From positions 1,426,001 to 1,490,000 of the forward strand of contig NZ_CP047025.1 of the NCBI RefSeq assembly GCF_009796845.1: a DNA stretch of 64,000 bases, given 5' to 3'. The position numbers and the translations under genes are program-made. The notes beneath the pieces are model-generated. The model was not told where the DNA came from and did no database searches. It worked only from the letters and a program-made list of their open reading frames with translations. Of this stretch, positions 17,502 through 59,736 are shown in pieces. The DNA is from Cobetia sp. L2A1 (lineage in GTDB: Bacteria; Pseudomonadota; Gammaproteobacteria; Pseudomonadales; Halomonadaceae). Each line of letters opens with the position of its first letter. Position 1 is the stretch's first letter.

Positions 17502-17571
17502 TAGGATGCAAGGGGCAGGCCGCGCCTGCTCGATCATGTTCCACCAAGTCAGTTTCAGGAGAGAATCATTC

Positions 17572-25978: not shown

Positions 25979-26011
25979 GTGAAAGCCTCCTGTTTATCAG
26001 TCAATCGAAAT

Positions 26012-26830: not shown

Positions 26831-27198
26831 GTTAGCGACTCCTGAGATAGGCAAAGGGGTACCGAGACGTATGAAAGAATCATTCGTCAAATCCGCGAAA
26901 GGGCAACGGAGCATTAACTTGAGAAGTGGGTAATCAGTTGAGTGATTCACCTGAAAGGTTGAATGGGGTCTCTGTGGAAACAGCCTCCTGATATGTCCAA
27001 GCCGAATCATTGTGTACTAATAGCATAACTCAAGTGGTGAGATTTTACGGCATCAGTTAACCGTCAAAATCGACCGTTTCGCGAGCATTAGGCCCTTTTA
27101 GTGCAAATCTCGGTAGTAATTTATTATCAGGAGAATGATTCCTGATTGATTTTTGTAATTCATCGGTTGTTGAACGGTGATGGTCTTCAAGCACTGCT
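26831..27198. other. Promoter region of the recombinase trio
   Basis: No supported gene. AT-rich and contains the trio's likely promoter on the minus strand and the 3' flank of the integrase gene. Confidence 0.4.
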
Positions 27199-35238: not shown

Positions 35239-36276
35239 TCAGGCAGGCGCTTTCGTGCGGGGGGTCTCGCAAGAGGGCGTCCAGGGCATTCGGTCACGCA
35301 GGACACCGGACTGCTGGATGATGCCGACGACAGAGGTTTCCTGACGATGCGCCATGATATGCACACCACTGACGCCTTCGATCTCACGCAGTTGCTGAAT
35401 CATCTCGATGCAGATATTGCGTCCTTCTGCCTTCTGATCCTTGGCACCTTCAAGCCGCGTGATGATGTGATCAGGGATATGCACCCCGGGCACATGCTGA
35501 CGCATCCAGTTCGCTGTGCGTGCAGAGGCGAGTGGGCCGACACCGGGCAGAATGAAGCATTTTTCCAGCAATCCCAGATCTTGTGAGCGTTGCATGAAAG
35601 CCGTGAAGCGCGGCAAGTCGAAGCAATACTGTGTCTGGATGAACTGGGCACCGGCGGCGATCTTCTTGGCCAGACGGTGCGGGCGAAAATCGAAGGGCGG
35701 CGCAAACGGATTCTCTGCCGCGCCCAGGAATATCCGTGGGGGATCGGTGAGTTTTCGTCCACTGGCAAAGGCATGCTTGTCGCGTAATCCGGCGACGATC
35801 TCCAGTAGCGACAATGAATCAAGGTCAAAGACCGGCTTGGCTTGCGGGTGATCCCCGACCTGTACCCCATCGCCCGTCAGGCACAGCATGTTGTTGATGC
35901 CCAATGCTGCGCCGCCCAGGATGTCGCCCTGGATGGCGATGCGATTTCGGTCACGACAGGAAATCTGCATGACCACCTCATGCCCCTGACGCGCCAGCAG
36001 GGCACACATCGCCACGCTGGACATATGGCAGTTGGCCCCCGAGCCATCCGTCGCATTCATGGCATCCACATGGCCTTCGAACAGGCGCGCTCGTGCGTAG
36101 ACATCCTGTGGATTCGCCGAGTCGGGTGGCGCCAGTTCGGCGGTAATCGCGAAGTGCCCATTCTTCAGGACTTGCTCCAGGCGACCACGGGAGCTATGTC
36201 CGGGCAGGCCAGACTCTGGCTCCGATTCAGAGCCAGCGCCAGCGTTGCCATCTTCGATATCGACATGGAGGGTCAC
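35239..36276 (-). CDS. Methylenetetrahydrofolate reductase, MetF-type
   Basis: 345 aa from a GTG at 36276, chosen because GGGAG precedes it and it overlaps the upstream stop (GTGA); the longer frame to 36567 overlaps the upstream gene and is not conserved. MTHFR features: AELAPPDSANPQD (about 48-60), NATDGSG, the CRDRNRIAIQGDILGGAALG region, LTGD, and FIQTQYCFD with FILPGVGPL. A ~20-residue low-complexity Gly/Ser/Glu lead precedes the barrel. It reduces 5,10-methylene-THF. Together with the small protein upstream it forms the split MTHFR arrangement seen in one-carbon catabolism clusters. Confidence 0.87.
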   Translation of the reverse strand: MTLHVDIEDGNAGAGSESEPESGLPGHSSRGRLEQVLKNGHFAITAELAPPDSANPQDVYARARLFEGHVDAMNATDGSGANCHMSSVAMCALLARQGHEVVMQISCRDRNRIAIQGDILGGAALGINNMLCLTGDGVQVGDHPQAKPVFDLDSLSLLEIVAGLRDKHAFASGRKLTDPPRIFLGAAENPFAPPFDFRPHRLAKKIAAGAQFIQTQYCFDLPRFTAFMQRSQDLGLLEKCFILPGVGPLASARTANWMRQHVPGVHIPDHIITRLEGAKDQKAEGRNICIEMIQQLREIEGVSGVHIMAHRQETSVVGIIQQSGVLRDRMPWTPSCETPRTKAPA

Positions 36277-36749
36277 GGCTTGCTCTCCCGCTGTGCTGCG
36301 TGTCGTTGTGCTGTCTGGCGTGCCACGCGTAGCCACGAGGACGTGCCTTTCAAGCGATGGTCTAGCGGTAACTGCACCACCTGAATGGCATCGTCGGCTC
36401 GCATCTGCTGACTGCCTTCCCACGCCTCGACCCAGACACAGCGCTGCTCGGGGATGACTTCGCAATTCCCGTTCTGAAGCACTCCACCGCAGGGGCCGTT
36501 GCGTATGTTCTTGGGGCAGTTCATGGAGCAGGACATGCCTGTGGAGCTCAAGATGCACTGGCCACACATCTGACAGTCAAACACCAGGCCCTTGCACAGT
36601 TGCTCCAGCTTTGCGATGGGCTTTTCTGCCCGTTCGTAGCCCACGGATTTCCACAGCGGATGCAGCTTGATGATCACCGGCTCGACGGCCTGATAGGTGA
36701 GTTCCAGCAATCTTGCGTGGCGTGTCGCCCACAAGCGAATGGACAGCAT
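36273..36749 (-). CDS. MTHFR C-terminal-domain protein (MetV-like, zinc/Fe-S cysteine cluster)
   Basis: 158 aa. The Cys-rich centre is CQMCGQC (about 60-66) then SCSMNCPKNIRNGPCGG, the signature of the MTHFR_C domain that partners MetF in some bacteria. Tail residues are Arg-rich. Gene order small protein-MTHFR with a four-base overlap indicates one complex. Known: in acetogens MetV links MTHFR to electron donors; here the donor is unknown. Confidence 0.85.
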   Translation of the reverse strand: MLSIRLWATRHARLLELTYQAVEPVIIKLHPLWKSVGYERAEKPIAKLEQLCKGLVFDCQMCGQCILSSTGMSCSMNCPKNIRNGPCGGVLQNGNCEVIPEQRCVWVEAWEGSQQMRADDAIQVVQLPLDHRLKGTSSWLRVARQTAQRHAAQRESKP

Positions 36750-45997: not shown

Positions 45998-46745
45998 AGC
46001 CGCGCCTGTCCCAGCCAGGCGATCCCAGTCCTCCAGCGTTTCACCGTCCTGGGCAATACGCACGTTGGCAGGCAGCAAGGGAGGAGCCACCAGACACTCG
46101 GCATCGAGTTCGTGACTGATATGCGTCAGGTAGGCGCGTGGCGGGTTGAGTCGCGCGATGATATCCAGCGCTTGAGTGATGGTGTTGTGATTGCGAGGGG
46201 TGGTGAACGCGGCGGGGTGGCTGGAATCCAGTATCACTACATCGGGCTCCCAGCTGCGTAGGAAACGTTCGGTTTCCGGGGGCAGGCCGAGCGTATCAGT
46301 GAGATAGGCCAGCCGTGTGCCACCGTCGTCAAGGCAATAGCCAAGTGTCGGTTTCGAGTGATTGAGCGGTACCGGTGTCACCGTCAGGCTATCCAGCTTC
46401 AAGGGCTTGAACGGCTTGAGTCCGGACTGAAAGTCCAGAATGCCGGGATTGCGGTAGAGGTCCGCGCAGCCTTGTGGGTCCTTTGGGCCGTAGACAGGAA
46501 TGCGCTCACCCGCACCCCCAGCGCAGATGGAAAAGCCCCTGTACGTGATCAGCATGATAATGGGTGATCAGGATTGCCGCGGGACGCGCGAGCTTACAAC
46601 TGTGCGCCAGATCCATGCGGCCGGCATCCAGCAGGTAGCGCTTGCCATCGATGCGAACCTCGGCGGAACACGGCCTACGCGTGAGGCTCGTGAAGACGCG
46701 GGCCCTGTTGCAGGCTGGGCATTCGCAGCCAAAGCAGGGCACCTG
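45998..46745 (-). pseudogene. phnP left copy, 5'-truncated and frameshifted
   Basis: 748 bases nearly identical (about 6 substitutions and one inserted C) to 58847-59593, in the same orientation. The native N-terminal ~14 residues are missing, being replaced by unrelated sequence. The inserted C in the CACCC run near 46506-46511 shifts the frame after RWGCG. The 3' end runs on through 45965 (tail IASRSIPDRR), probably the original phnP terminus. See the findings for the integration model. Confidence 0.85.
45998..46745. repeat. Direct repeat, left copy (phnP-internal, ~748 bp)
   Basis: Pairs with 58847-59593 at about 99% identity and brackets 12.1 kb of catabolic genes. The junction bases change abruptly at both ends of the repeat (left outer sequence before AGCCGCGCC, right outer sequence after GCACCTG). 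Confidence 0.9.
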
Positions 46746-47488
46746 AGCGACAGAATCATTATCACCAGACAAAGCGAAGCTAGATTCTGATTTACCAACT
46801 GGCTAATAAATTGTGTGCTTTACTCTAGCCGTGTCTTGTGACCCGTGCCACTTGGTGCGGGTTTTTCGTTATTTAGCAATCACGACTTTGCGTCATCGGA
46901 CGTTGATCTTCAAAAACGACATGCCGATTGTACGGAAAAATGCCTAGTACAAAGCGTTCGGCCACAGCGAGTAGGGATGGTATTGGTGCTGGCCTGTCGG
47001 TTCTTCTATGAGGGAGGCTCATGCCACGAGCCTTTACTCTTTTCAGGGAAGCCATTGCCATTGCTCATGGACAGTGATTCACTAATTTTTTTGTTAATCG
47101 ATATTCTCTAATTGATTGATATTGAATGATTTTTTATTTCTTCTAGAAGGTTTTTCTTGTTTTTTCAACCCCTTGTCACGATGAATTGTGCAACAAATCT
47201 TTGTATGGCCTTATTCCTGCAGGATCAATTATTGCTTTCGCAATGCAGCCTGCCGAGTTGATCTCGTGGCCCTTTCAGACAGGTAGGATCACTGATTTTA
47301 ATAACTGGCATTTTGCATACTCATCCAAAACGATAAATAGATGCTATCTCACTTTGCTAAGCTAAGCAGGCTCCAGCGCTGGCCTCTACATGACGTCCTC
47401 CCTGAAACGTCTTCTTGATACGGCGTCTGTGGTGCCATTGGGAGACTGCGCCGGCCGTGAAGAACACAACAACGCAAGGAGACCTCGC
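46746..47488. other. AT-rich inner flank of the inserted block with an orphan terminator
   Basis: No gene supported. Starts exactly at the left repeat junction, contains a terminator (46841-46866) with no gene to serve, and then a long AT-rich stretch (47080-47380) that should hold the opu promoter. Confidence 0.5.
46841..46866 (+). terminator. Orphan rho-independent terminator
   Basis: ACCCGTGCCA pairs with TGGTGCGGGT (two G-T pairs) and is followed by TTTTT. No plus-strand gene lies upstream, suggesting the gene it served was cut off at the repeat junction. Confidence 0.6.
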
Positions 47489-48157
47489 TTGGAACTGATC
47501 CAGTATGCTCTGGACAATCTGGAGCTCTTGACCACACGCACCCTTGAGCACATCTCGCTGGTCGGGGTGGCGGTGGGTATCGCCACGCTCACTGGTGTAC
47601 CCATCGGTATCGCGATTACCAAAAATGAGCGCGCAGCCAAGACAGTGCTGTATATCGCCTCGATCATCGTGACGATCCCCTCCATCGCACTGTTCGGCAT
47701 CATGATTCCGATCCTATCGTTGATCGGGCAGGGCATTGGCTATGTGCCGGCTGTCATTGCCGTTTTGCTGTATTCGCAGTTGCCAATCATCCGCAACACC
47801 TATACCGCGATCAACAATGTCGACCCTGCTCTGCGTGAAGCGGCCAGAGGGCTGGGCATGAGTCAGAACCAGCGCTTGTGGATGGTCGAGATTCCACTGG
47901 CGGTACCGATCATCATGGCCGGTGTGCGCACTGCCGTAGTGCTGAACATTGGAGTGATGGCGATCGCGGCCTATATCGGTGCCGGTGGGCTTGGCACCTT
48001 TATCAGTCGAGGAATTTCCCAGTCAGACCCGCGTCAGTTGATTGTCGGGGCGGTAGCAGTCAGCGTGCTTGCCATCCTCGTCGACTACGCATTGTTGGCG
48101 CTACAGAAGCGCCTGACGCCCATGGGTATGGACCGTGCAACAGCGGCCAATGCCTAA
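47489..48157 (+). CDS. OpuB-type ABC transporter permease (first)
   Basis: 222 aa from a TTG at 47489, chosen because AAGGAG lies 7 bases upstream; an ATG at 47390 lacks a ribosome site. Five or six membrane helices, and the EAA loop DPALREAARGLGMSQNQRLWMVEIP that contacts the ATPase. Homologous in layout to OpuBB/OpuCB and YehW/YehY of osmolyte importers. Starts the opu-like operon. Confidence 0.87.
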   Translation: MELIQYALDNLELLTTRTLEHISLVGVAVGIATLTGVPIGIAITKNERAAKTVLYIASIIVTIPSIALFGIMIPILSLIGQGIGYVPAVIAVLLYSQLPIIRNTYTAINNVDPALREAARGLGMSQNQRLWMVEIPLAVPIIMAGVRTAVVLNIGVMAIAAYIGAGGLGTFISRGISQSDPRQLIVGAVAVSVLAILVDYALLALQKRLTPMGMDRATAANA

Positions 48158-48203
48158 CAGCGTCATACGCGCGCCATTCTGCCAACTAGACAAGGAATTC
48201 TTC

Positions 48204-49394
48204 ATGATCGAACTCGACAATCTCACCAAAGTCTTCGACACCCCCAAGGGTGCCGTCACGGCGGCTGACCATATCAGCATGAAGGTGCCGAGCGGCGAAA
48301 TTTGTATCCTGCTCGGACCGTCCGGCTGTGGCAAGACCACCAGTCTGAAGATGATCAATCGCATCATTCGCCCGACATCTGGCCGAGTGCTGATCAATGG
48401 GGAAGACACCACCAATCTCAATACGCAGGAACTGCGTCGCAACATCGGCTATGTCATCCAGCAGATCGGACTGTTCCCGAACATGACCATCGAGGAAAAT
48501 ATCACGGTGGTGCCCAAACTACTGGGCTGGGACAAGACTCGGTATCGCGAGCGTGCTCGCGAAATGATGCGCATGATCGCGCTGGAACCCGATGCCTTCC
48601 TCAAGCGCTATCCGAGTGAGCTTTCCGGCGGGCAGCAGCAACGGATAGGTGTTGCGCGCGCCTTGGCGGCGGATCCGCCTGTGATGCTGATGGATGAGCC
48701 ATTTGGCGCAATCGACCCCATCAACCGCGCGGTGATTCAGGATGAGTTCCTCAAGATGCAGCAGGATCTCAAGAAGACCATCATGTTCGTCAGTCACGAT
48801 ATCGATGAGGCGATCAAGATGGGCGACCGCATCGCGATCTTCCGTGGCGGCAAGCTGGTGCAGTATTCCCCGCCAGATGAGCTGTTGGCAGCGCCGAAGA
48901 ATGACTTCGTCGAATCTTTCCTGGGAGAAGACCGTGCTTTGAAGCGCCTCAACCTGGTCAAGGTGCGTGACTTGGCGAGTGAGGACATAGGCATGGTGAG
49001 GCCGGATGACACCTTGACCACGGCACTCGAACGCATCGAAGCCTACGGCTACCAGAGCAGCATCGTGATGGTGAACGACAAGCGTCAGCCGGTAGGCATC
49101 ATCAGTGCTGCCATCGCACGTACTTCCAAGGGGCATTGTCGGGATCACTTCCAGGGCGTGCCTGTCGTAGTCAGCCTCGATGACGATCTGCGCAAGGTGG
49201 CCTCGTTGATGTTTGCCAATGACATGACCTGGATACCGTGCGTGGATGATGAGGGTCGCATCGTCGGTCAGATTACGCAACGGGCCATCACGCATCATCT
49301 GAGCTCCCGCTACCGGGCACATTCGGGGTCTTCCGCTGCCTTGGCTTCCGGCCAGCAGGACGAGATGTCCCCGACCACGGTGCACAAGGAATAA
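48204..49394 (+). CDS. OpuB-type ABC transporter ATP-binding protein with CBS pair
   Basis: 396 aa from ATG 48204 (AAGGA upstream). Walker A GPSGCGKTT, signature LSGGQQQRIGVARAL, Walker B VMLMDEPFGAID, then HDIDEA. The C-terminal ~130 residues contain two CBS repeats (VRPDDTLTTALERIEAYGY and VSLDDDLRKVASLMFANDM), which in OpuA respond to ionic strength. Inward import of quaternary amines or DMSP-like compounds is the expected role. Confidence 0.92.
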   Translation: MIELDNLTKVFDTPKGAVTAADHISMKVPSGEICILLGPSGCGKTTSLKMINRIIRPTSGRVLINGEDTTNLNTQELRRNIGYVIQQIGLFPNMTIEENITVVPKLLGWDKTRYRERAREMMRMIALEPDAFLKRYPSELSGGQQQRIGVARALAADPPVMLMDEPFGAIDPINRAVIQDEFLKMQQDLKKTIMFVSHDIDEAIKMGDRIAIFRGGKLVQYSPPDELLAAPKNDFVESFLGEDRALKRLNLVKVRDLASEDIGMVRPDDTLTTALERIEAYGYQSSIVMVNDKRQPVGIISAAIARTSKGHCRDHFQGVPVVVSLDDDLRKVASLMFANDMTWIPCVDDEGRIVGQITQRAITHHLSSRYRAHSGSSAALASGQQDEMSPTTVHKE

Positions 49395-49398
49395 GCCC

Positions 49399-50130
49399 AT
49401 GCCAACGTTGAAATTCACGGGCGTATTACGACTGGTGGCAGTGATCGCGATCTTCATGGCTGGTGTCTGGAGCCAGTCGACTGGTGTGATCGAAGAGTTC
49501 ATGTTCTACCTGCCGGATATCCAGTTCCTGACGGTACAGCATCTGTGGCTGACGGCGCTGTCCGGCGGGTTAGCGATAGTGGTTGCCATTCCATTGGGGA
49601 TCGTCCTGTCGCGCCCCAGCATGACGCGTTATGCCGAATCGGCCATGCAAGTACTCAATGTAGGCACCACCATCCCGACGCTGGCGGTATTGGCGTTGTC
49701 GATGAGCTTCCTGGGTATCGGCACGGTACCTGCTGTCTTTGGCTTATTTGTGGCGACCCTATTGCCCATCACCCGTAACACCTATGTGGGGCTCAAGGGA
49801 GTGTCACCCGCCTTGAAGGAAGCGGCATCCGGAATTGGCATGTCACCGTTCCAGCGCCTGGTGCGTGTGGAACTCCCCAATGCGCTGTATGTGATGTTTG
49901 CCGGAATCCGTACGGCACTGGCCATCAACGTCGGTACGGTACCGCTGGCTTTTCTGATCGGTGCCGGTGGGCTGGGTGAGCTGATCTTCACCGGTATCGA
50001 TCTCTATGACCCGGTCATGATGTTGTCTGGCGCCATCCCTACCACACTGCTGGCGGTCGGTGTGGATGTGCTGGTGGCCTTCGTGGCCTTCATCGTGGTC
50101 CCGCGCGGCGTCAACCCTGCGCGAGCATGA
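49399..50130 (+). CDS. OpuB-type ABC transporter permease (second)
   Basis: 243 aa; AAGGA before ATG 49399. EAA loop SPALKEAASGIGMSPFQRLVRVELP and about six helices. Pairs with the first permease as a heterodimer. Four bases after the ATPase stop. Confidence 0.9.
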   Translation: MPTLKFTGVLRLVAVIAIFMAGVWSQSTGVIEEFMFYLPDIQFLTVQHLWLTALSGGLAIVVAIPLGIVLSRPSMTRYAESAMQVLNVGTTIPTLAVLALSMSFLGIGTVPAVFGLFVATLLPITRNTYVGLKGVSPALKEAASGIGMSPFQRLVRVELPNALYVMFAGIRTALAINVGTVPLAFLIGAGGLGELIFTGIDLYDPVMMLSGAIPTTLLAVGVDVLVAFVAFIVVPRGVNPARA

Positions 50131-50233
50131 ACGAATACGCCTGTGGCAGCCAAGGCTGCTACAGGTTGGCATACCGCTAGACCTTAAAAATAACAAGTTG
50201 TTAGACCGATTTTTCATAGGATAGGAGAGCATC

Positions 50234-51115
50234 ATGAAGACCTTGACGACCCTGCTGACAGGCGCTGCCCTAGCCGCCACGCTATCAACGGCGTATGCCG
50301 AAGAGATTGTGGTGGGTGGCAAGAACTTCACCGAGCAACAGATCCTCGCGAACATGACAGGACAATATCTGGAAAGCTTGGGCTATGACGTGGAGGAGCG
50401 TTCTGGCATGGGCTCTGCCGTGCTGCGTCAGGCTCAGGAGAATGGCCAGATTGACCTCTATTGGGAATACACCGGCACGTCACTGATCAACTACAACGAT
50501 GTCAGTGAACGTCTGAGTCCGGAGGAGACCTATTCCCGTGTCAAGGAATTGGATGCCAAGAAGGGTCTGGTATGGCTAGTACCTTCCGCGGCCAACAATA
50601 CCTATGCGCTGGCGATGCGTGAGTCGGATGCCCAGGAGCGTGGCATCGCCTCACTGTCGGACCTCGCGCAGGCGGTCAATGATGACAAGGGACTGACCTT
50701 CGCGCTGAACGCCGAATTCTATGCGCGGGATGATGGATGGCGACCACTGCAGAAAGCCTATGACTTCCGTGTCGGGCGCGCCGACGTCAAGCGTATGGAT
50801 TCCGGTCTGGTCTACCAGGCCCTGCGTGATGGTCAGGTCGATGTCGGTCTGGTGTTCGCCACCGATGGCCGCATTCCGGCGTTCGATTTCACGGTGCTCA
50901 AGGATGACAAGGGTTATTTCCCGGCCTATGCCCTGACACCAGTAGTGCGTGAGGAATCTCTCAAGGCCAATCCGGAGCTTGAGGCCCAGATGAATGCCCT
51001 GTCTGCCGAGCTCAATGACGACACCATGGCAAGCCTGAACGCGCAGGTCGATGTCGAGAGGAAGTCTGTCGAACAAGTCGCCGAGGACTTTCTTAAGGAA
51101 CACGGCCTCAAGTGA
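50234..51115 (+). CDS. OpuBC/OpuCC-type periplasmic substrate-binding protein
   Basis: 293 aa with AGGAG. Cleavable signal peptide (about 1-22, STAYAEE) and no lipobox, so a soluble periplasmic protein. Type II binding-protein features: IVVGGKNFTEQQILANMTGQYLE, DLYWEYTGTSL, GLVWLVPSAANNTYALAM and LVYQALRDGQVDVGLVFATDGRI. These match glycine betaine/choline/carnitine binders, but the ligand of this one cannot be told. Ends in a strong inverted repeat. Confidence 0.9.
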   Translation: MKTLTTLLTGAALAATLSTAYAEEIVVGGKNFTEQQILANMTGQYLESLGYDVEERSGMGSAVLRQAQENGQIDLYWEYTGTSLINYNDVSERLSPEETYSRVKELDAKKGLVWLVPSAANNTYALAMRESDAQERGIASLSDLAQAVNDDKGLTFALNAEFYARDDGWRPLQKAYDFRVGRADVKRMDSGLVYQALRDGQVDVGLVFATDGRIPAFDFTVLKDDKGYFPAYALTPVVREESLKANPELEAQMNALSAELNDDTMASLNAQVDVERKSVEQVAEDFLKEHGLK

Positions 51116-51150
51116 CACTCGGCAGCGCTTAAGTCCGAGCGCAGCGATGT

Positions 51151-51185
51151 CATGACAAGGCCGCCCACGAGGCGGCCTTGTCATG
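51151..51185. terminator. Long perfect hairpin after the opu-like operon
   Basis: CATGACAAGGCCGCC, a 5-base loop and the exact inverse (15-bp arms). No T-run follows, so it may act with Rho or allow readthrough into the PrpD-like gene. Confidence 0.6.
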
Positions 51186-51266
51186 TCTGACGGCTCACTT
51201 TATACCACTTACGCCTTTCTCTTTATCCCGCAATATTTTAGCCGCCCGCTACAGTGGAGAAGCCCT

Positions 51267-52631
51267 ATGTCGGTCGTGGATTCCTCGCTTCATGTAACTA
51301 CCTCCCTCGATACGCACATCGATACGTCTGCTGATATTTCTTCGCTAGTGCATATCCACGAGTATGATCTCACTTGCCTCAGCGTTGATCAGCTTCATCA
51401 GGTCAAACGTTGCCTACTGGATCTGTTGGGTGTCGCTGCTGGTGCCACTCGCACGCCTCTGGCAGCCAAGGCAGCGCGTTATGTGACGCGCCAACATGGT
51501 GGTGACTTGCCGCTGTTGTTTGCGCATGGCAGTGCCTCTTCCAGTGGCGTTGCCCTGCAGGGCGGCTGGTTGATTGATGCGCTGGATGCCCATGACGGTC
51601 AGGTATTGACCAAGGGGCATGCCGGAGTTGCCTTGTTGCCCGGCCTGTTGGCGTTGCCGGAAACCCGCGAGCTTGCCGGGCGTGATTTTCTGGCACTGCT
51701 GGCCTATGGCTATGAGATCGCGACGCGGGCAGGAATCGCTTTGCATGCACAGAGCCCGGATTACCATACCTCGGGTGCCTGGAATGCACTGGGTGTGGCT
51801 GCGGTGACGGCGCGTCTGCGTGGCTTTGATCGCGAGACTCTGCACCATGCGCTGGGCATCGCCGAGTTCTACGGGCCGCGCAGCCAAATGATGCGTTGTA
51901 TTGATCATCCCACCATGCTCAAGGATGGCTCCGGCTGGGGAGCCATGACAGGGATCTCGGCAGCGCTGCTGGCGGAGGATGGTTTCACTGGCGCGCCGGC
52001 ATTGACAGTCACAGCTCCTGCCGTTGCAGAGCTGTGGAAAGACCTCGGTCAGCGACACTACCTGTTCGAGCAATATTTCAAGGCTTATCCGGTGTGTCGC
52101 TGGGCGCAGCCTGCGGTAGAGGCGGTGCTGTCGTTGGCTGACGCCGTCCCTGAGCCTGAGCATATCGCGCGTATCGAGATTATTACCTTCCACCAGGGCA
52201 AGCGACTGCATGTCATACATCCCCAGACTACCGAACAGGCTCAGTACAGTCTGCCTTGGTCTGTCGCCTGCGCACTTGGGCGTGGTGTCGTGGATGTCGA
52301 GGGCGTCTGTGAGGCATTGGGTGATCCATTACTCAAAGCTCTGGCGAGCAAGGTGGTGATTGAGGAAGATGACGTGTTCAATGCTCGCTTCCCCGCCGAG
52401 CGCTGGGCCCGCGCGCGTATCGTGCTGGCGAATGATGATGTGCTCGAAAGCGAGGACCACGAGGCGCTGGGCAATCCGGACAAGCCGCTGAGTGATGCTC
52501 AGGTGCTGGCCAAATATCAGGCCCTGGCTGAACCCGTGCTGGGCGCGCGAGCGACTCAGTTACGCGATGTCGTGATGAGCCTTGAATCACGCCCGGTATC
52601 GGAGCTGCTGGCGCTACTGGGTGCGCCTTGA
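51267..52631 (+). CDS. MmgE/PrpD-family (2-methylcitrate dehydratase-like) protein
   Basis: 454 aa from ATG 51267 (GGAGA upstream). Family segments: VKRCLLDLLGVAAGA, LIDALDAHDG, YHTSGAWNALGVAAVTARL, DGSGWGAMTGISAALLA and KAYPVCRWAQPAVEAVL. Members dehydrate or isomerise carboxylic acids. In this cluster it may dehydrate a hydroxy-acid intermediate. Overlaps the nitrilase gene region by a few bases. Confidence 0.87.
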   Translation: MSVVDSSLHVTTSLDTHIDTSADISSLVHIHEYDLTCLSVDQLHQVKRCLLDLLGVAAGATRTPLAAKAARYVTRQHGGDLPLLFAHGSASSSGVALQGGWLIDALDAHDGQVLTKGHAGVALLPGLLALPETRELAGRDFLALLAYGYEIATRAGIALHAQSPDYHTSGAWNALGVAAVTARLRGFDRETLHHALGIAEFYGPRSQMMRCIDHPTMLKDGSGWGAMTGISAALLAEDGFTGAPALTVTAPAVAELWKDLGQRHYLFEQYFKAYPVCRWAQPAVEAVLSLADAVPEPEHIARIEIITFHQGKRLHVIHPQTTEQAQYSLPWSVACALGRGVVDVEGVCEALGDPLLKALASKVVIEEDDVFNARFPAERWARARIVLANDDVLESEDHEALGNPDKPLSDAQVLAKYQALAEPVLGARATQLRDVVMSLESRPVSELLALLGAP

Positions 52632-52696
52632 ATCTGGCTGCCGCGGCTGACATTCTTCACGGTGCTTTCCCTTTCTTTTGTCTTCGAGATCATCCA

Positions 52697-53539
52697 ATGC
52701 ACCATCAAGATCACTTACGCGTTGGCGCGGCACAGATCAACGCCACACTCGGCGATATTGATGCCAACCTTGAGCGTCATCTCGATGTCATTCACCAGGC
52801 CCGCGATATCGAGTTGGATCTGCTTGTCTTCCCGGAGCTCTCGTTGACCGGCTACGGTATGGGGAATCGGGTCATTGATCTGGCTTTTCCTCTGCATGAT
52901 CCACGCTTGCTGATTCTGGCGCGCGCGGCGGACGACATGCAGTTGGTGGTGGGGTTTGTCGAAGAGGCAAGTCCGGGCGAATACTACAATGCGTTGGCGA
53001 TCTTGCAGCACGGCAGTCTTCAGATGGTGCACCGCAAGCTAAACTTGCCGACCTACGGAGGGCTGGAGGAGGGCAAGCTGTTCACCCACGGCAATGATTT
53101 GACTCAATCAAGCGTGCGCGCAGGGTGGTCCGCCACGTCATTGATCTGTGCGGACCTTTGGAATCCGGGGCTGGTGCATGCTGCTATGCTCGCGCGTCCC
53201 ACCGTGTTGTGCGCGCCGATCAATTCGGCATCTGGCATTGTCAGTGATGACTTCTCCAATGAGCAGAACTGGGCGATCAACCTCCAGTTCTACGCCATGA
53301 CTTATGGCACACCGGTCATCATGGCCAATCGCTTCGGGCCGGAAGGTGGCAGTCATTTCTGGGGCGGCTCACGGATTCTCGGCCCACGCGGGGAAACGCT
53401 GGCACAGGCGGAAGACCGCGAGATGCTGATACATGCCGAACTGTCGCGCACCGCGATCGCCAAGGCTCGTTTCGAGCTGCCGACGCACCGCGACGCTGAT
53501 ACGCCGCTGGTACGTGATTTGATGCTGGGCTATCGCTGA
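52697..53539 (+). CDS. Nitrilase-superfamily carbon-nitrogen hydrolase
   Basis: 280 aa from ATG 52697; an in-frame TTG at 52628 is an alternative, and the ribosome site is weak for both. The catalytic triad is complete: Glu47 in FPELSLTGY, Lys114 in HRKLNLPTY, Cys151 in LICADLWNP. The Cys context fits amidases and NAD-synthetase-type glutaminases. Likely hydrolyses an amide or nitrile intermediate of the substrate pathway. Confidence 0.88.
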   Translation: MHHQDHLRVGAAQINATLGDIDANLERHLDVIHQARDIELDLLVFPELSLTGYGMGNRVIDLAFPLHDPRLLILARAADDMQLVVGFVEEASPGEYYNALAILQHGSLQMVHRKLNLPTYGGLEEGKLFTHGNDLTQSSVRAGWSATSLICADLWNPGLVHAAMLARPTVLCAPINSASGIVSDDFSNEQNWAINLQFYAMTYGTPVIMANRFGPEGGSHFWGGSRILGPRGETLAQAEDREMLIHAELSRTAIAKARFELPTHRDADTPLVRDLMLGYR

Positions 53540-53599
53540 TCGGGAGGGCAGCCTGCTGGCGATTAGCGCTGTCAGTAATGCCACTGATGAAGGCAATAC

Positions 53600-53639
53600 G
53601 AAAAACGCCCGCTCCAGAGTTCAGGAGCGGGCGTTTTTC
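53600..53639. terminator. Bidirectional terminator
   Basis: AAAAACGCCCGCTCC and its inverse GGAGCGGGCGTTTTT, 8-base loop, between the nitrilase end (plus) and the MmsA-type gene end (minus). Confidence 0.88.
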
Positions 53640-53769
53640 GTTCCGGGGCAATTTCAGAACAGGACAATTTGCAGGACGGGTGTGACATGAAAGCCATTGG
53701 GGATAACTGGACGGGGTAGCTCAGTTGCTGGCACTCATTCTTTTATCTCGCGGCGAGAACAGTGACGCC

Positions 53770-55257
53770 TCAGGAAGGAAAGCTGAACTGGGCGGATTCC
53801 TGGACACTGCGTTCTGGCCAGCGCTGGGACACGCTTTTGCGTCGAGTATAGAAGCGCACAGCATCTGGGCCATAGGCATGCAGATCGCCGAACAATGAAT
53901 CCTTCCATCCGCCAAAGCTGTGGAACGCCACCGGTACCGGCAAGGGAACATTGATGCCGACCATACCGACTTCTATCTTGTCGGCGAATCTCCGTCCAGC
54001 TTCTCCGTCTCGGGTGAAGAGGCAGGTACCGTTGCCATACTGGTGGTCGTTGATCAGTGTGATGGCATCTTCGAAGCTTGCCACTCGTACCACGCACAGT
54101 ACCGGACCGAAGATTTCGTCGCGGTAGATGCTCATCTCGGGCGTGACTCGATCAAACAGTGTCGCCCCCATGAAGTAGCCGGGTGAGCTGGAGACTAGTG
54201 AGTGAGTTCGCCCATCCACTACCAAGTGTGCACCCGCGGTAGCTCCTGCCTCGATATAGCCAGCGACCTTGTCGCGCTGTGAGGCATTGATCAGAGCTCC
54301 CATGTCGTGACCTGGCTCGGTGCCCGGGCCGATGCTCAGTGCACGTGCCTGTGGGGCGAGGCGTTCAATCAGCGCATCCGCTGTGTCATCCCCCACACAG
54401 ACTGCGACAGAGATGGCCATGCAGCGTTCACCGGCGCTGCCGAAGGCTGCACCAATCAACGTGCTGGCGGCGTTGTCAAGATCGGCATCCGGTAGCACCA
54501 CAGCATGATTCTTGGCGCCCCCCAGTGCTTGGATGCGCTTGCCCTGGCGTGTACCTCCTTCATAAATGCTGCGCGCCACGGGGGTCGAGCCCACAAAGCT
54601 CATCGCCTTGACCTCCGGTGCAGCGATCAGTGCCTCGACTGCCTGGCGATCACCGTGCACCACGCTGAAGAGACCTGCAGGCAGGCCAGCCTCTTGAAGC
54701 AGAAGGGCCATCTTGTTGGCCGCCGACGGGCTCTGTTCTGAAGGCTTGAGGATGAAGGCATTTCCACAGGCGAGTGCCATGGGGAACATCCATAGCGGTA
54801 CCATGGCCGGGAAGTTGAACGGTGTGATGCCAGCCACGATTCCCAGCGGCTGATGGTTGGACCAGGTATCGATACTCGGGCCAGCGTTGTGGGAGTATTC
54901 GCCCTTGAGCAGTTCCGGCACGCCACACGCATACTCGACATTTTCAATGCCTCGTTTGAGTTCTCCCATTGCATCATCTAGCACTTTGCCGTGTTCTTCG
55001 CTGATCAGCGCACAGATCTCATGGGCATCACGCTCCAATAGCATTTTGAAGCGATACATGACCTGGGCACGTTTGGCGGGTGGCATGTTGCGCCACGCAG
55101 GTAAGGCAAGCTGCGCTGCGATGATGGCGCGTTGCACGATGTCGGCATCTGCCAGCGGCAGGCGGCGAACTGCCTCTGCGGTGGCCGGGTTCAGTACGTC
55201 TAGAGTGCGATCGCCAGTAACGGCTTCACCACCAATCAGGTGAGTCAGGGTATCCAT
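53770..55257 (-). CDS. CoA-acylating (methyl)malonate-semialdehyde dehydrogenase, MmsA/DddC type
   Basis: 495 aa, full length. NAD site FNFPAMVPLWM, catalytic Cys279 in SAGERCMAIS, and GGAKNH in place of the usual catalytic Glu, the mark of CoA-dependent MmsA rather than hydrolytic aldehyde dehydrogenases. Converts malonate or methylmalonate semialdehyde to acetyl- or propionyl-CoA. DddC of DMSP/3-hydroxypropionate pathways is of this family, but valine or inositol MmsA cannot be excluded by sequence alone. Its position between amidase and M24 enzyme argues for the final step of this cluster. Confidence 0.88.
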   Translation of the reverse strand: MDTLTHLIGGEAVTGDRTLDVLNPATAEAVRRLPLADADIVQRAIIAAQLALPAWRNMPPAKRAQVMYRFKMLLERDAHEICALISEEHGKVLDDAMGELKRGIENVEYACGVPELLKGEYSHNAGPSIDTWSNHQPLGIVAGITPFNFPAMVPLWMFPMALACGNAFILKPSEQSPSAANKMALLLQEAGLPAGLFSVVHGDRQAVEALIAAPEVKAMSFVGSTPVARSIYEGGTRQGKRIQALGGAKNHAVVLPDADLDNAASTLIGAAFGSAGERCMAISVAVCVGDDTADALIERLAPQARALSIGPGTEPGHDMGALINASQRDKVAGYIEAGATAGAHLVVDGRTHSLVSSSPGYFMGATLFDRVTPEMSIYRDEIFGPVLCVVRVASFEDAITLINDHQYGNGTCLFTRDGEAGRRFADKIEVGMVGINVPLPVPVAFHSFGGWKDSLFGDLHAYGPDAVRFYTRRKSVSQRWPERSVQESAQFSFPS

Positions 55258-55358
55258 CAGTCAGATTCCAGCCTTGTATTCAGTCGCGAAAATAGTCGGT
55301 GTCATGAAGCGTTAGTCACTCGAAGAGCCGCGCGTGCGTCTCATCAGGCGTTGCCTGT

Positions 55359-56642
55359 CTAGAACTGACGACCGAGTAGTGCTTCATCAAAGGGATAGCG
55401 CGAAATCTTCTCGATGCCGGTATCGGTGATCAGCACTTCTTCTTCCAGTTTGACGCCATCGGCTGCTCCGACTTCGCCAATATAGCTCTCTACCGAGACC
55501 ACCATGCCGGGTTCCAGCACGCCATCCTTGGAGAAGCGATCAAAGTCCATGTGGTGTGCGACCAGTGGCGTCTCGCCATGCATGCCGACACCATGAATGA
55601 TCGAAGGATAGCGGCGGTCGAGGAAACGCTCGGGAATCTTCCAGGCGCTCTCAGCGATTTCTCGATAGCTGATGCCGGGTTTGAGTATCGACATGTTGTG
55701 ATGCACTTGCTCGTGAGCCATCTGATAAAGGGCTTGTTGATAGCCACTGGGCCGACCCGGGCCGACATGGAAGGTGCGTGAGAAGTCGGAGTAGTAGCCA
55801 TGACAGCCGATAGTGTCGGTATCGAGGGCTACCAGCTCTCCGGGGCGAATCACACGATCACTGGCTTCGTTGAACCACGGATTGGTGCGCGGACCAGATG
55901 ACAGGAGGCGTGTTTCGATGAACTCCCCGCCCTGGCGAATGACATCACCGTACATGATGGCGAATAGCTCGTTTTCGGTGACGCCGGGCTTGATGGCGGC
56001 CTCTACGGCAGCAACGGCAGCTTCGCTACCCGCCATTGACTGTGCGAGACAGGCGATTTCTTCGGGTGTCTTGAGGCGACGGCAATGCAGGGTGTCTTGC
56101 ATGCAATCGAACACCTCCAGTCCTTGAGCCTCCAGCGAGCGCGCCAGATTCAGGGTGCAGCGATCCAGGCCTACCTTGCGATTACCGCCACCATGCTTCT
56201 CGACCAGTTGGGCGATCTCGATGCCGAAGGGGTCGCTCGACAGATTGTCGCGCTGGTTGACGGCTGACCACACCACCTTGGAGGTGCGTGCCTCATCGAT
56301 AGTCTCGAGCCAGGTCGAGATATGAGCGCTACCGGGATACTCGAAAAGTATCACTGGGCCTTCGAGGGGTACGTAGATGTAACGGGTGGAGTTGCGCAGA
56401 AAGTAGCCGAACATGTTGCGCGAGCCAGTGGCATAACGCTGATTGTTGGGATCAAACAGCACTACGGCGGCATAGCCTTGTTCAGCCATCATGGCGCGCA
56501 TGCGTGTCAGGCGTCCGCCACGTAGCTTTACGGGATCAAAGGCGGTGGGAATGCTATCCCCATTTCCCATCGGTGCAGAAGGTACTACCGAGAAAGAGGC
56601 GGGTTCACTGTCTGTCAGGCGTTCGAAATCGACGATGCTCAT
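55359..56642 (-). CDS. M24 'pita-bread' metalloenzyme related to DddP
   Basis: 427 aa from ATG 56642; a TTG 7 codons earlier is possible. Similar to DddP from memory: GGEFIETRLLSSGPRTNPWF, then DTDTIGCHGYYSDFSRT and HGVGMHGETPLV. All six metal ligands align (D274, D276, D286, H350, E385, E400). However, the residue corresponding to the catalytic base Asp377 of Ruegeria DddP is Gly356 (H350 plus six). A DMSP lyase function is thus doubtful, and a hydrolase on another substrate (creatinase- or ectoine-hydrolase-like C-N cleavage) is equally likely. Confidence 0.8.
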   Translation of the reverse strand: MSIVDFERLTDSEPASFSVVPSAPMGNGDSIPTAFDPVKLRGGRLTRMRAMMAEQGYAAVVLFDPNNQRYATGSRNMFGYFLRNSTRYIYVPLEGPVILFEYPGSAHISTWLETIDEARTSKVVWSAVNQRDNLSSDPFGIEIAQLVEKHGGGNRKVGLDRCTLNLARSLEAQGLEVFDCMQDTLHCRRLKTPEEIACLAQSMAGSEAAVAAVEAAIKPGVTENELFAIMYGDVIRQGGEFIETRLLSSGPRTNPWFNEASDRVIRPGELVALDTDTIGCHGYYSDFSRTFHVGPGRPSGYQQALYQMAHEQVHHNMSILKPGISYREIAESAWKIPERFLDRRYPSIIHGVGMHGETPLVAHHMDFDRFSKDGVLEPGMVVSVESYIGEVGAADGVKLEEEVLITDTGIEKISRYPFDEALLGRQF

Positions 56643-56697
56643 GTCAGGTAGACTCACAGTCAAAATGAAAAGGAAGATGAAAAGGTCGCCAAGAAGC

Positions 56698-57579
56698 TCA
56701 GTCAGCTAAGTTGTCGCTGCGCTTCATGCCTTCCTTGAGCAGTTGCTCATGGATAGGTGCCATGCGCCCAAAGATCCGCTGCGCTCGCTCGGGACGCCCA
56801 ATGAAGCCTGGCTCCTTGGCGTAGGCGAAGATCACGGTATGACGTTCGCGTTCACCACTGACCTGCGTGACGCGATGCAGTGAGTAGCGCCCGAAGAAGA
56901 TCTGCAGGTCGCCCGGTTTCAGATCGATGGCGGTGAGGCGTGAGCGGTCCCCATCAAGCACCTTCTCGACATCGGCGAAGTTCTCGCTTTCGGGATTACG
57001 AATGCCTGCGGCGTATTCGAAGCGGCCTCCCGCATGCGACTTACGGGTCATCATGGTGACGATGAATTCGTTGGTGTCGTAGTGCCAGGGGTGCTGACAG
57101 CCATCGCGCAGGACATTGACAACCAGGTCTGCGAGTGGATCTGCGTACTGATGGATCTGCTCCATGCCCACTACGCTTGCGATGAAGTGCTGGAAATCGG
57201 GATGCGAGTAGACCTGACGAATCAAAGTATCCGTACCGATGCGATCACCTGCGACAAAGCCATTGGTGCGATCATCGAAACGATTGCGCGGATGGGAGTC
57301 GGGCAGTGAGGTATCGCCGTCGCTGTTATAGGGATTGGTTACGGTCTGGTTGTAATGCGCCAGTGGCGACAGACGTTCTGTTTCTTGCTCCAGTCGCATC
57401 AGAGCTTCTTGGGGCACGAAGCCCTCCAGCACGACACAACCATCCTGAGCGAGCTGTTCGCGACATTGGCGCATCAGTTCGCGACCACGCGCTTCTTCCA
57501 GCTGATGGATGGGATAATGTTCAAGATCTAACAGCCCATCGAGAGAGGTATTACTTTCCTGCCCTTCGATTACGTGCAT
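56698..57579 (-). CDS. PhyH-family Fe(II)/2-oxoglutarate dioxygenase
   Basis: 293 aa from ATG 57579 (AGGAGG 7 bases upstream; a TTG two codons earlier is unlikely). The iron triad is visible: H166-x-D168 in WHYDTNEF and H235 in YSLHRVTQV; R246 should bind 2-oxoglutarate. Known: PhyH-type enzymes hydroxylate or halogenate unactivated C-H bonds. Not EctD, as ectoine-hydroxylase signatures are absent. Upstream gene of the minus-strand M24/MmsA run. Predicted to start substrate attack. Confidence 0.85.
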   Translation of the reverse strand: MHVIEGQESNTSLDGLLDLEHYPIHQLEEARGRELMRQCREQLAQDGCVVLEGFVPQEALMRLEQETERLSPLAHYNQTVTNPYNSDGDTSLPDSHPRNRFDDRTNGFVAGDRIGTDTLIRQVYSHPDFQHFIASVVGMEQIHQYADPLADLVVNVLRDGCQHPWHYDTNEFIVTMMTRKSHAGGRFEYAAGIRNPESENFADVEKVLDGDRSRLTAIDLKPGDLQIFFGRYSLHRVTQVSGERERHTVIFAYAKEPGFIGRPERAQRIFGRMAPIHEQLLKEGMKRSDNLAD

Positions 57580-57691
57580 GCCCAACCTCCTATTTCCTGC
57601 TCTCTGAATAACGTAGGAATAGGTTAGGGGGTGTGTTTTGATAATAGAAATGAATGGTCAAGATCAAATGCATTGCGAGGGCTCATAGATC

Positions 57692-58630
57692 ATGGATACC
57701 GACTTGCTACGTGCGTTTGTCACGGTTGCCGAATGTGAAGGGTTCAGTGCCGCCGGTAAGGTGCTGCATCGCACACAATCTGCCGTCAGCCTGCAGATCA
57801 AGCGGCTGGAGGATCTGATGGGAGGACCTCTGCTATCCCGAACCAGTCGTAGAGTAGAACTTACGGCCTCGGGTGGTCGGCTCTTGCCCTATGCGCGACA
57901 TATTCTCAAGCTTCAGGATGAAGCTCGGCAGGCGATGGGAGTAGATCGCAAAAGTGAGCTGATACGGCTGGGGACGTCAGAAGAGCAGGCCAGTATCTAT
58001 CTGCCAGCATTGTTGTCGCGCTTTGCGGCTGACTTTCCTGAGGTACGTCTGGAGGTGACGTGTAATATCAGTGCTTCACTGGTGCATGACTTTCAGGAGG
58101 GGCTGTTGGATGCAGTACTTGTCGTGCGGCACGGACCGACACAGACCGGACGCTTGTTGGGACGAGAGCGCATGGTATGGGTGGTGGCCGAGCACCAATC
58201 CATCGAGGAGTGGGATGTGCTTCCTCTCGCACTTAATTCGGAAGGCTGTATTTTCCGCGCGCATGCCTTCGCCGCGCTTGGCCGTGAAGACAGGCAATGG
58301 GACGTGCGCTATTCCAGTCAGTCTCCGACTGGTATCAATATCCCAGTAAAGGCTGGCTTGGCACTGACGGTCAAGACGCCGCGTAGTGTGCCGCAAGGGT
58401 GCCGCATTGTCGGTGATAGTGAAGGCCTGCCGCCGCTTGGGTATGTGGAAATTGAGTTACATCGCTCTCCTGGGCATGTGAGTGATGCCGTGACCGCTTT
58501 TTGCAATTATCTGGAATCGATCGTGACGGAAGAAGGAAAACTGGAGAGTTTCGGAAAGCTTAATAAATCTTCAGCGGGTGAGTGTGGTGCCATGAATCTG
58601 GAAGCCGAGAGCATTGCGAAAATGATCTGA
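57692..58630 (+). CDS. LysR-family regulator of the catabolic cluster
   Basis: 312 aa. HTH GFSAAGKVLHRTQSAVSLQIKRLEDLMG (about 17-44), then a substrate-binding domain. Divergent from the PhyH gene across 112 bases, the typical LysR arrangement, so it likely controls the cluster and responds to its substrate or product. Confidence 0.9.
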   Translation: MDTDLLRAFVTVAECEGFSAAGKVLHRTQSAVSLQIKRLEDLMGGPLLSRTSRRVELTASGGRLLPYARHILKLQDEARQAMGVDRKSELIRLGTSEEQASIYLPALLSRFAADFPEVRLEVTCNISASLVHDFQEGLLDAVLVVRHGPTQTGRLLGRERMVWVVAEHQSIEEWDVLPLALNSEGCIFRAHAFAALGREDRQWDVRYSSQSPTGINIPVKAGLALTVKTPRSVPQGCRIVGDSEGLPPLGYVEIELHRSPGHVSDAVTAFCNYLESIVTEEGKLESFGKLNKSSAGECGAMNLEAESIAKMI

Positions 58631-58699
58631 TATACCGTGAACCAATGATTCCGGGCATCAAGGTAGGTGGGAGACTCGCCACTGCAATTGAGGTGTCTT

Positions 58700-58753
58700 A
58701 TGACGAGAGAGCGACATGCCTTTACTCCCGAATTCAAACAGGAAGCAGTCAGT
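58700..58753 (+). pseudogene. IS3-family OrfA N-terminal relic
   Basis: ATG 58700 begins MTRERHAFTPEFKQEAVS, the usual opening of IS3-family OrfA proteins, which then loses similarity within 20 codons. It lies 94 bases inside the right repeat junction. Supports past transposition at this border. Confidence 0.5.
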
Positions 58754-58810
58754 CCCGGCACTGTACTGCATCGTTGAGGAGCTGATGTATATATTCGCAC
58801 TCTCCAACAC

Positions 58811-59629
58811 TCACCCAGTGGCTCCCTTCCGCGAATATATGTCGTGAGCCGCGCCTGTCCCAGCCAAGCGATCCCAGTCTTCCAGCGTTTCACCGTCCTG
58901 GGCAATACGCACGTTGGCAGGCAGCAAGGGAGGAGCCACCAGACACTCGGCATCGAGTTCGTGACTGATATGCGTCAGGTAGGCGCGTGGCGGGTTGAGT
59001 CGCGCGATGATATCCAGCGCTTGAGTGATGGTGTTGTGATTGCGAGGGGTGGTGAACGCGGCGGGGTGGCTGGAATCCAGTATCACTACATCGGGCTCCC
59101 AGCTGCGTAGGAAACGTTCGGTTTCCGGGGGCAGGCCGAGCGTATCAGTGAGATAAGCCAGCCGTGTGCCACCGTCGTCCAGGCAATAGCCAAGTGTCGG
59201 TTTCGAGTGATTGAGCGGTACCGGTGTCACCGTCAGGCTATCCAGCTTCAAGGGCTTGAACGGCTTGAGTCCGGACTGAAAGTCCAGAATGCCGGGATTG
59301 CGGTAGAGGTCCGCGCAGCCTTGTGGGTCCTTTGGGCCGTAGACAGGAATGCGCTCACCGCACCCCCAGCGCAGATGGAAAAGCCCCTGTACGTGATCAG
59401 CATGATAATGGGTGATCAGGATTGCCGCGGGACGCGCGAGCTCACAACTGTGTGCCAGATCCATGCGGCCGGCATCCAGCAGGTAGCGCTTGCCATCGAT
59501 GCGAACCTCGGCGGAACACGGCCTACGCGTGAGGCTCGTGAAGACGCGGGCCCTGTTGCAGGCTGGGCATTCGCAGCCAAAGCAGGGCACCTGGGCGCTG
59601 TCACCGGTGCCTGAAAACCGAAACTCCAT
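58811..59629 (-). CDS. phnP: PhnP cyclic ribose phosphate phosphodiesterase (intact right copy)
   Basis: 272 aa from ATG 59629 with AGGAGAG. Metallo-beta-lactamase fold: CFGCECPACN zinc site (about 16-25), YLLDAG, THYHADHVQG (about 70-79), and LNHSKPTLGY. Known: opens the 1,2-cyclic phosphate made by C-P lyase. Its last ~10 residues (HDIYSRKGATG) differ from the left copy because the repeat junction falls there, so it probably has a non-native C-terminus. Last gene of the phn operon. Confidence 0.88.
   Translation of the reverse strand: MEFRFSGTGDSAQVPCFGCECPACNRARVFTSLTRRPCSAEVRIDGKRYLLDAGRMDLAHSCELARPAAILITHYHADHVQGLFHLRWGCGERIPVYGPKDPQGCADLYRNPGILDFQSGLKPFKPLKLDSLTVTPVPLNHSKPTLGYCLDDGGTRLAYLTDTLGLPPETERFLRSWEPDVVILDSSHPAAFTTPRNHNTITQALDIIARLNPPRAYLTHISHELDAECLVAPPLLPANVRIAQDGETLEDWDRLAGTGAAHDIYSRKGATG
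58847..59593. repeat. Direct repeat, right copy (phnP-internal, ~747 bp)
   Basis: See the left copy at 45998-46745; this copy lacks the inserted C and keeps the frame. Confidence 0.9.
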
Positions 59630-59653
59630 CGTAAGCTCTCCTGACCTGCGTTT

Positions 59654-59676
59654 CCGGCACCGCGATGCGGTGCCGG
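59654..59676 (-). terminator. Hairpin between phnN and phnP
   Basis: CCGGCACCGC and GCGGTGCCGG arms (10 bp) with a 3-base loop in the 107-base gap. No T-run; may be an intra-operon attenuator or mRNA-stability element. Confidence 0.45.
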
Positions 59677-59736
59677 TCTCTCGTGCCTGCATATCTTGTC
59701 GAACCACCGAACGACTGCTGTCTGATGTTCGAGGCG

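Follow-up and report, generated by a model that had tools for sequence, protein, structure and literature searches.

The question raised by a 64,000-nucleotide stretch of the Cobetia sp. L2A1 genome (contig NZ_CP047025.1, positions 1,426,001 to 1,490,000; hereafter the window) is which compound is taken up and degraded by the products of ten genes that lie between two copies of phnP. We propose, with moderate confidence, that this cluster imports and degrades a betaine, i.e., a carboxylated onium compound, and that its 2-oxoglutarate/Fe(II) dioxygenase and its M24 enzyme perform the work done elsewhere by Rieske or MttB enzymes, the chemistry being proposed from the enzyme families. An earlier model-made reading of the same DNA (the first-pass annotation) knew of no named pathway with this enzyme set, and our full-text literature searches found no paper describing one, a weak result given that subscription papers and preprints were thinly covered. 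Literature searches on homarine gave no gene set for comparison, and it was set aside.

Gene content and co-occurrence of the cluster

The host genome is represented by one contig of 4.12 Mb with an estimated completeness of 100%. Open reading frame (ORF) calling and profile searches located ten intact ORFs at 47390-58630, all at the places given by the first-pass annotation. Its start coordinate (46746) falls where the left phnP fragment ends, whereas the cluster itself opens with a gene that starts at 47390. The plus-strand operon has the order permA-ATPase-permB-binding protein-MmgE-amidase, and the minus strand encodes the MmsA paralogue, the M24 enzyme and the dioxygenase, with the LysR gene divergent from the dioxygenase gene (Table 1). 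The family names assigned earlier were right (two BPD permeases, a ProV-subfamily CBS ATPase, OpuAC, MmgE_PrpD, CN_hydrolase, MMSDH, Peptidase_M24, HalD/PhyH and LysR), with two labels corrected: the M24 protein belongs to the DddP clade but scores below the DddP cut-off, and the dioxygenase is closer to Pfam HalD (57.2 bits) than to PhyH (24.2 bits).

Among 131 genomes of the family Halomonadaceae, in which the dioxygenase was counted at no less than 70% identity and the M24 enzyme at no less than 86%, these two enzymes (the core) were found in an identical set of 47 genomes and were adjacent in every one. The amidase was also present in 47 genomes, 46 of them shared with the dioxygenase (G508 being without it, and G430 holding only a fragment, without the core), while the binding protein was present in 50, of which 46 were shared and four were without the core. 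MmgE occurred in 33 genomes, 30 of these among the 47 that bear the core. Fisher values against the dioxygenase, uncorrected for relatedness, were 4e-33 for the amidase, 2e-29 for the binding protein and 3e-14 for MmgE. The dioxygenase and amidase genes lay within 25 kb of each other in 34 of the 46 genomes and within 50 kb in 38, at 400 kb in one and on separate contigs in seven.

A survey of loci covered the best 80 of 86 dioxygenase-bearing contigs, with genes scored at 45% identity or more over at least 100 residues; each stretch was cut off at 10 kb or by the limit of its contig, which makes counts other than those of M24 and LysR adjacency lower bounds. Near the dioxygenase gene were found M24 (80 loci), LysR (79), MmsA (45), the amidase and the binding protein (32 each) and MmgE (12), the M24 gene following within 500 nucleotides (nt) at all 80. 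Amidase and binding protein were both near the core at 30 loci, and all ten genes at one (L011). Twenty gene patterns were apparent, some arising only from missing or cut genes, and the importer varies both in its side relative to the core and in its orientation (compare L011, L065, L073 and L081 with the more usual form), a variability that speaks against a single fixed arrangement having been inherited.

The co-occurrence across the family, together with the loci in which the core is accompanied by both amidase and binding protein, bears out the earlier claim that these genes belong together: the cluster genes form a unit. The accompanying claim, that all seven enzyme families constitute one obligatory path, was not sustained, since the co-occurrence check was positive for the core, the amidase and the binding protein, with MmgE and MmsA being optional at the frequencies given above.

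The best named relatives of the dioxygenase gene are those of Onishia, Halomonas, Chromohalobacter and allies, and the gene is rare outside the family (at E <= 1e-30, it was detected in 23 of 398 genomes sampled from the phylum, including five family members). A second dioxygenase-M24 subgroup, whose dioxygenase is 41-45% identical to that of the window, has the two genes adjacent at 48 of 49 places; at each of its five loci read (L113 and L137-L140), genes for a ProX-like binding protein and/or for BCCT carriers are present.

Table 1. Features of the cluster and its flanks (window coordinates)
Feature	Coordinates	Strand	Supporting data
phnP, broken extra copy, left flank, outside pathway	45998..46749	-	direct repeat of 58847-59597
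OpuB-type permease A (permA)	47390..48157	+	Pfam BPD_transp_1 86.6 bits
ATPase with CBS domains, ProV subfamily	48204..49394	+	TIGR01186 350.3 bits, cut-off 326.6; CBS 58.8 bits
OpuB-type permease B (permB)	49399..50130	+	Pfam BPD_transp_1 66.2 bits
Periplasmic binding protein, OpuAC family	50234..51115	+	Pfam OpuAC 240.3 bits
MmgE/PrpD family enzyme, optional member	51183..52631	+	both Pfam domains
Nitrilase-superfamily amidase (Nit)	52628..53539	+	Pfam CN_hydrolase 112.2 bits
Inverted repeat, likely terminator	53598..53641		between convergent Nit and MmsA genes; 21-nt arms, 95% complementary, 2-nt spacer
CoA-acylating (methyl)malonate-semialdehyde dehydrogenase (MmsA) paralogue	53770..55257	-	TIGR01722 643.1 bits, cut-off 448.5
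M24 enzyme, DddP clade	55359..56663	-	six metal ligands D281, D283, D293, H357, E392, E407; Tyr352 at Tyr366; Gly363 at Asp377
2-Oxoglutarate/Fe(II) dioxygenase, BesD/HalD group	56698..57585	-	triad H168-x-D170...H237, R248
LysR-dioxygenase intergenic region	57586..57691		conserved box ATTCATTTNNATTAT at 57641-57655 (- strand)
LysR-type regulator	57692..58630	+	Pfam HTH_1 and LysR_substrate
phnP, intact, right flank, outside pathway	58811..59707	-	TIGR03307 PhnP 335.9 bits, cut-off 272.25

The dioxygenase, the M24 enzyme and their probable regulator

Profile matches and an AlphaFold model with a mean predicted local distance difference test (pLDDT) value of 92.1 place the dioxygenase in the BesD/HalD group, with a triad of the hydroxylase type. 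The best structure matches of this model are HalD, HalB, BesD and a lysine hydroxylase, i.e., free-amino-acid halogenases and a hydroxylase; the top match has template modeling (TM) scores of 0.64 (query) and 0.74 (target) at 17% identity and therefore gives the fold class, not the substrate. The iron triad and the 2-oxoglutarate arginine are invariant in 49 of 49 sequences, and no NCBIfam model matched the protein. While fold and best profile matches are common to the window dioxygenase and the BesD/HalD halogenases and hydroxylases, the former carries Asp in its iron triad, as hydroxylases have, exceeds its solved relatives in length by 31-44 residues (295 against 251-264 residues), is 13-18% identical to the BesD/HalD-type structure matches, and stands in a catabolic setting. 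It is predicted to hydroxylate the betaine, with an N-methyl group or the carbon beside the onium nitrogen as the most likely site.

The M24 enzyme is, in turn, predicted to split the hydroxylated product as a di-metal hydrolase or hemiaminal lyase. A similar logic is outlined for the MgdH/MgdL demethylation of methylguanidine in a halophile formerly named Halomonas, where a dioxygenase is followed by a dedicated enzyme which breaks the hydroxylated product (PMC12508155). The comparison is one of description only: the same paper presents MgdH as a 41-kDa protein under riboswitch control, encoded among guanidine genes, and MgdL as a hypothetical protein, and although both dioxygenases occur in halophiles, identity of MgdH with the 295-residue window protein is, given the reported mass, not claimed.

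The first-pass annotation had called the M24 enzyme DddP-like, DddP being a lyase of dimethylsulfoniopropionate (DMSP), and had a DMSP-like compound among its possible substrates. Family, all six metal ligands (Asp295, Asp297, Asp307, His371, Glu406 and Glu421 of DddP) and the Tyr366 position are indeed common to both, and among solved chains the window protein is closest to those which we take to be DddP. Its score against the NCBIfam DddP model is, however, 314.4 bits, below the cut-off of 600, and the position of Asp377 is occupied by Gly in the window protein and in 12 of 13 aligned relatives; one solved chain has Asn at this position and is presumably a mutant. According to the DddP study, Asp377 is the favoured base and is invariant in DddP lyases (PMC4108388). 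Because Gly stands where DddP has this proposed base, activity as a DMSP lyase is unlikely, and DddP-type lysis is not supported. Asp377 is kept in four M24 relatives, three of which adjoin other oxygenases (L151, L152 and L154) and one of which adjoins a relative of the window dioxygenase (L083).

Degradation of DMSP or beta-alanine betaine, in which a working DddP would yield a C3 semialdehyde for conversion to acetyl-coenzyme A (acetyl-CoA) by a DddC-like MmsA paralogue, is accordingly considered highly improbable. The likeness to the solved DddP chains and an MmsA score above the CoA-acylating MMSDH cut-off would favor it, but the substituted base, the low DddP score and the fact that MmsA was not found near the core at 35 of 80 loci count against it. 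A DddP route, furthermore, can do without a dioxygenase and without an amidase.

Two more M24 relatives (44% and 47% identity) are encoded by the same genome (G000:C1:1794238-1795425 and 1650781-1651650), one having two in-frame TGA codons and the other being short; a dioxygenase gene adjoins neither.

The LysR gene, where present near the core, is divergent to the dioxygenase gene and adjoins it at 76 loci, lying approximately 5 kb away in L047, L054 and L060. The box ATTCATTTNNATTAT, which has a single exact match in the window, is unchanged at its defined bases in 73 of 88 LysR-dioxygenase regions (some genomes being counted twice), with one change in 11 and more in four. It is likely a LysR site, as judged from its conservation, and the LysR protein would probably govern the dioxygenase-M24 operon through it.

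Importer, amidase and optional enzymes

The importer has the composition of the OpuB/OpuC type, namely, two permeases, a CBS-domain ProV-type ATPase and an OpuAC binding protein; the top NCBIfam matches of permease A are choline and ProW permeases, under the cut-off. Alignment of the binding protein to ProX (1sw2) revealed that Lys13, Tyr63, Thr66, Tyr111, Arg149 and Tyr214 are kept and that Tyr190 is replaced by Phe, i.e., one of the four Tyr of the cage. We take these residues to be the onium-binding aromatic cage and the carboxylate-binding Lys/Thr/Arg of ProX. Five relatives of the binding protein keep the same ProX-type residues, but that of S. meliloti has Gln at position 190. The importer thus looks, by its residues, suited to a carboxylated onium ligand and would bring in a betaine. 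The uptake step claimed earlier is supported to this extent.

The Glu-Lys-Cys triad of the amidase (Glu70, Lys137 and Cys174) is invariant (28 of 28), and the enzyme is predicted to take off an amide at some step of the pathway. CN hydrolases of Ancylobacter (L150) and Sulfitobacter (L148) were not counted as this amidase, their identity being only 26-27%. Three loci (L124, L130 and L131) hold a group of genes for a CocE/S15 hydrolase, an additional amidase (55-57%) and an additional binding protein, near the importer operon in two of these loci and beside MmgE in one; it is possible that this group extends the system to substrate forms that are esters or amides.

The combination of an amidase with an M24 enzyme, a family that includes ectoine hydrolase and creatinase, brings to mind ectoine degradation by DoeA/DoeB, in which an M24 hydrolase and amide hydrolysis likewise occur; DoeA is given as an M24 protein in the literature (PMC3187862). 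By this logic, the core would degrade a cyclic or amide-bearing osmolyte through hydroxylation, ring or amide opening by the M24 enzyme (as DoeA) and deacylation by the amidase. Such a route is viewed as rather unlikely: the amidase is present in 46 of the 47 core-bearing genomes, and in Shinella HZN7 (L149) an OpuB-amidase set (amidase 43%) starts approximately 6 kb from the ectoine genes eutC, doeA and doeB, but the M24 enzyme scores far below the cut-offs of the DoeA models (51.7 of 575 and 24.5 of 613 bits), none of the ten proteins was called DoeB, DoeC or DoeD, and the dioxygenase is without an NCBIfam match.

For the betaine pathway proposed here, the remaining two enzymes are optional. 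Dehydration, the role first envisaged for the MmgE/PrpD enzyme, is not supported; the enzyme scores below the cut-offs of the PrpD 2-methylcitrate dehydratase models (22.4 bits against 950 and 18 bits against 575), and its closest solved relatives, all distant, are IRG1 and IDS-epimerase (42-48 bits). Because its family includes IDS-epimerase and because loci of S. meliloti and Rhizobium described below encode racemase- or epimerase-type enzymes, our guess, by analogy, is that it is an epimerase or isomerase rather than a dehydratase and, where present, probably epimerizes or isomerizes an intermediate. The MmsA paralogue carries the GERC catalytic cysteine and has three other copies in the genome (48-61% identity); where present, it would convert the resulting semialdehyde to an acyl-CoA.

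Related loci, flanking DNA and meaning for the family

Related genes in other genomes are found among further betaine-type functions. The OpuB-amidase pair of Paracoccus, whose amidase is 45-47% identical, is followed by GlxA, flavoenzymes and a hybrid-cluster reductase at three of three loci, with acyl-CoA dehydrogenase, CoA ligase and MmgE also present at two, and a Rieske oxygenase at two, the third stretch stopping at the hybrid-cluster reductase. In Rhizobium TAL182, a distant M24 gene (40%) sits between genes for a Rieske oxygenase and a reductase and a hydroxyproline-type set comprising an annotated 4-hydroxyproline epimerase, a ProXWV-type importer, an aldehyde dehydrogenase and a DapA-like enzyme. 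Rieske, reductase and M24 genes also stand together in Caballeronia grimmiae, as do those of a desaturase-type oxygenase, ferredoxin and M24 in Alisedimentitalea, and dioxygenase-M24 pairs accompany ProX/ProW/ProV-type genes in Caballeronia SBC2 and Pseudomonas MPC6; thus, three unrelated oxygenase types adjoin M24. A betaine-type importer lies beside the oxygenase-M24 genes in most loci read, none being seen in L152 and L154. Rieske-type demethylation pathways serve glycine betaine and proline betaine and have a betaine importer, an oxygenase and later dehydrogenases in common with the cluster, which differs in having a 2-oxoglutarate dioxygenase in place of the Rieske oxygenase and reductase, with no Rieske gene among the ten.

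The pSymA locus of S. meliloti ml47 combines MttB, a GlxA regulator, an M24 enzyme (64%), an isochorismatase-family hydrolase, an OpuB importer (binding protein 56%), a racemase-family enzyme and an Ldh_2 enzyme. The racemase-family enzyme of L078 was rejected as HpbD, as it matched 2pgw with 549 bits and 2pmq and 4h2h, which we take to be HpbD, with approximately 84. SMa1462 of S. meliloti strain 1021 is listed in the literature as an ABC-type glycine-betaine transporter (PMC3596328), and our guess, by position, is that it belongs to the M24-linked importer.

We tentatively suggest, with rather low confidence, that dioxygenase-M24 is a general and as yet undescribed module for catabolizing betaines in Pseudomonadota, which works with OpuB, ProX-type and BCCT importers and replaces Rieske or corrinoid demethylases; of its two enzymes, the dioxygenase would generate a hydroxylated onium compound and the M24 enzyme, with Gly for the lyase Asp, would break it.

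Several observations weigh against the betaine pathway as proposed. The M24-OpuB link of S. meliloti has no dioxygenase in the stretch read, and the product of a dioxygenase is therefore not a necessary substrate of the M24 enzyme. G508 has the core without amidase and binding protein. Within the family set, 12 of 107 M24 matches lie away from a dioxygenase gene, and five dioxygenase homologues below 41% identity lack an adjoining M24 (at E <= 1e-80), as does a single member of the 49 at 41-45%; more distant homologues without M24 occur in L084 (Rhodobacteraceae), L114 and L115. In the stretches examined, no further cluster gene accompanies the core at 16 of the 80 loci, and MmsA alone does so at 29. 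Finally, 39 regions upstream of permA yielded no common site for the box (in the window, the score of 4.5 bits was reached by 41 of 60 shuffles), and joint control of the importer and core operons was dropped as an idea.

Some of these points would suit two independent systems that travel together, the core for one compound and importer-amidase(-MmgE) for another. The lack of a shared box in the upstream regions searched, the Paracoccus importer-amidase-MmgE genes without M24 in the stretch read, and the proximity of the Caballeronia SBC2 and Pseudomonas MPC6 pairs to other betaine-type importers all speak for such an arrangement, which we nonetheless deem improbable, as both parts occur in 46 of 47 genomes, albeit on separate contigs or 400 kb apart in the eight noted above.

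As for the flanks, the left phnP fragment carries, within the part common to both copies, seven base substitutions relative to the right copy as well as a 1-nt insertion, as a result of which its frame is broken. Apart from L001, which represents the genome of the window itself, none of the loci compared yielded phnP in a tblastn search; the phnP-side location is therefore peculiar to this genome among the loci read. Recombination between the direct repeats (45998-46749 and 58847-59597) would delete the 12-kb cluster. An insertion sequence (IS) element near 58700 was considered and dropped, as a 25-residue transposase-like reading had no Pfam match.

Farther upstream, a MetF-like gene (35242-36567) is separated from the start of the cluster by approximately 11 kb; in two same-genus relatives such a gene is near the core, adjoining LysR in L134 and approximately 4 kb from it in L135, and it may provide a link to one-carbon release. 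At 32665-35072, a phosphotransferase-like gene (assigned by eye; no NCBIfam match at 1e-20) precedes a class III aminotransferase gene whose product has its match in the C-terminal portion of long PRK06148-type proteins, a pair which, we presume, resembles hydroxylysine kinase and phospho-lyase. A series of recombinase-like ORFs (by eye) at 20778-28203 is perhaps an integrated element, and the ergothioneine synthesis gene egtB lies at 17506-18876 (EgtB, 574.3 bits; cut-off 360).

With regard to annotation, these results suggest that DddP-clade M24 genes without Asp at position 377 should not be annotated as DMSP lyases. In salty and marine habitats, betaines rank with the principal osmolytes and foods, and the nearly all-or-none gene set carried by 47 of the 131 family genomes would point to a food source that current gene lists may miss.

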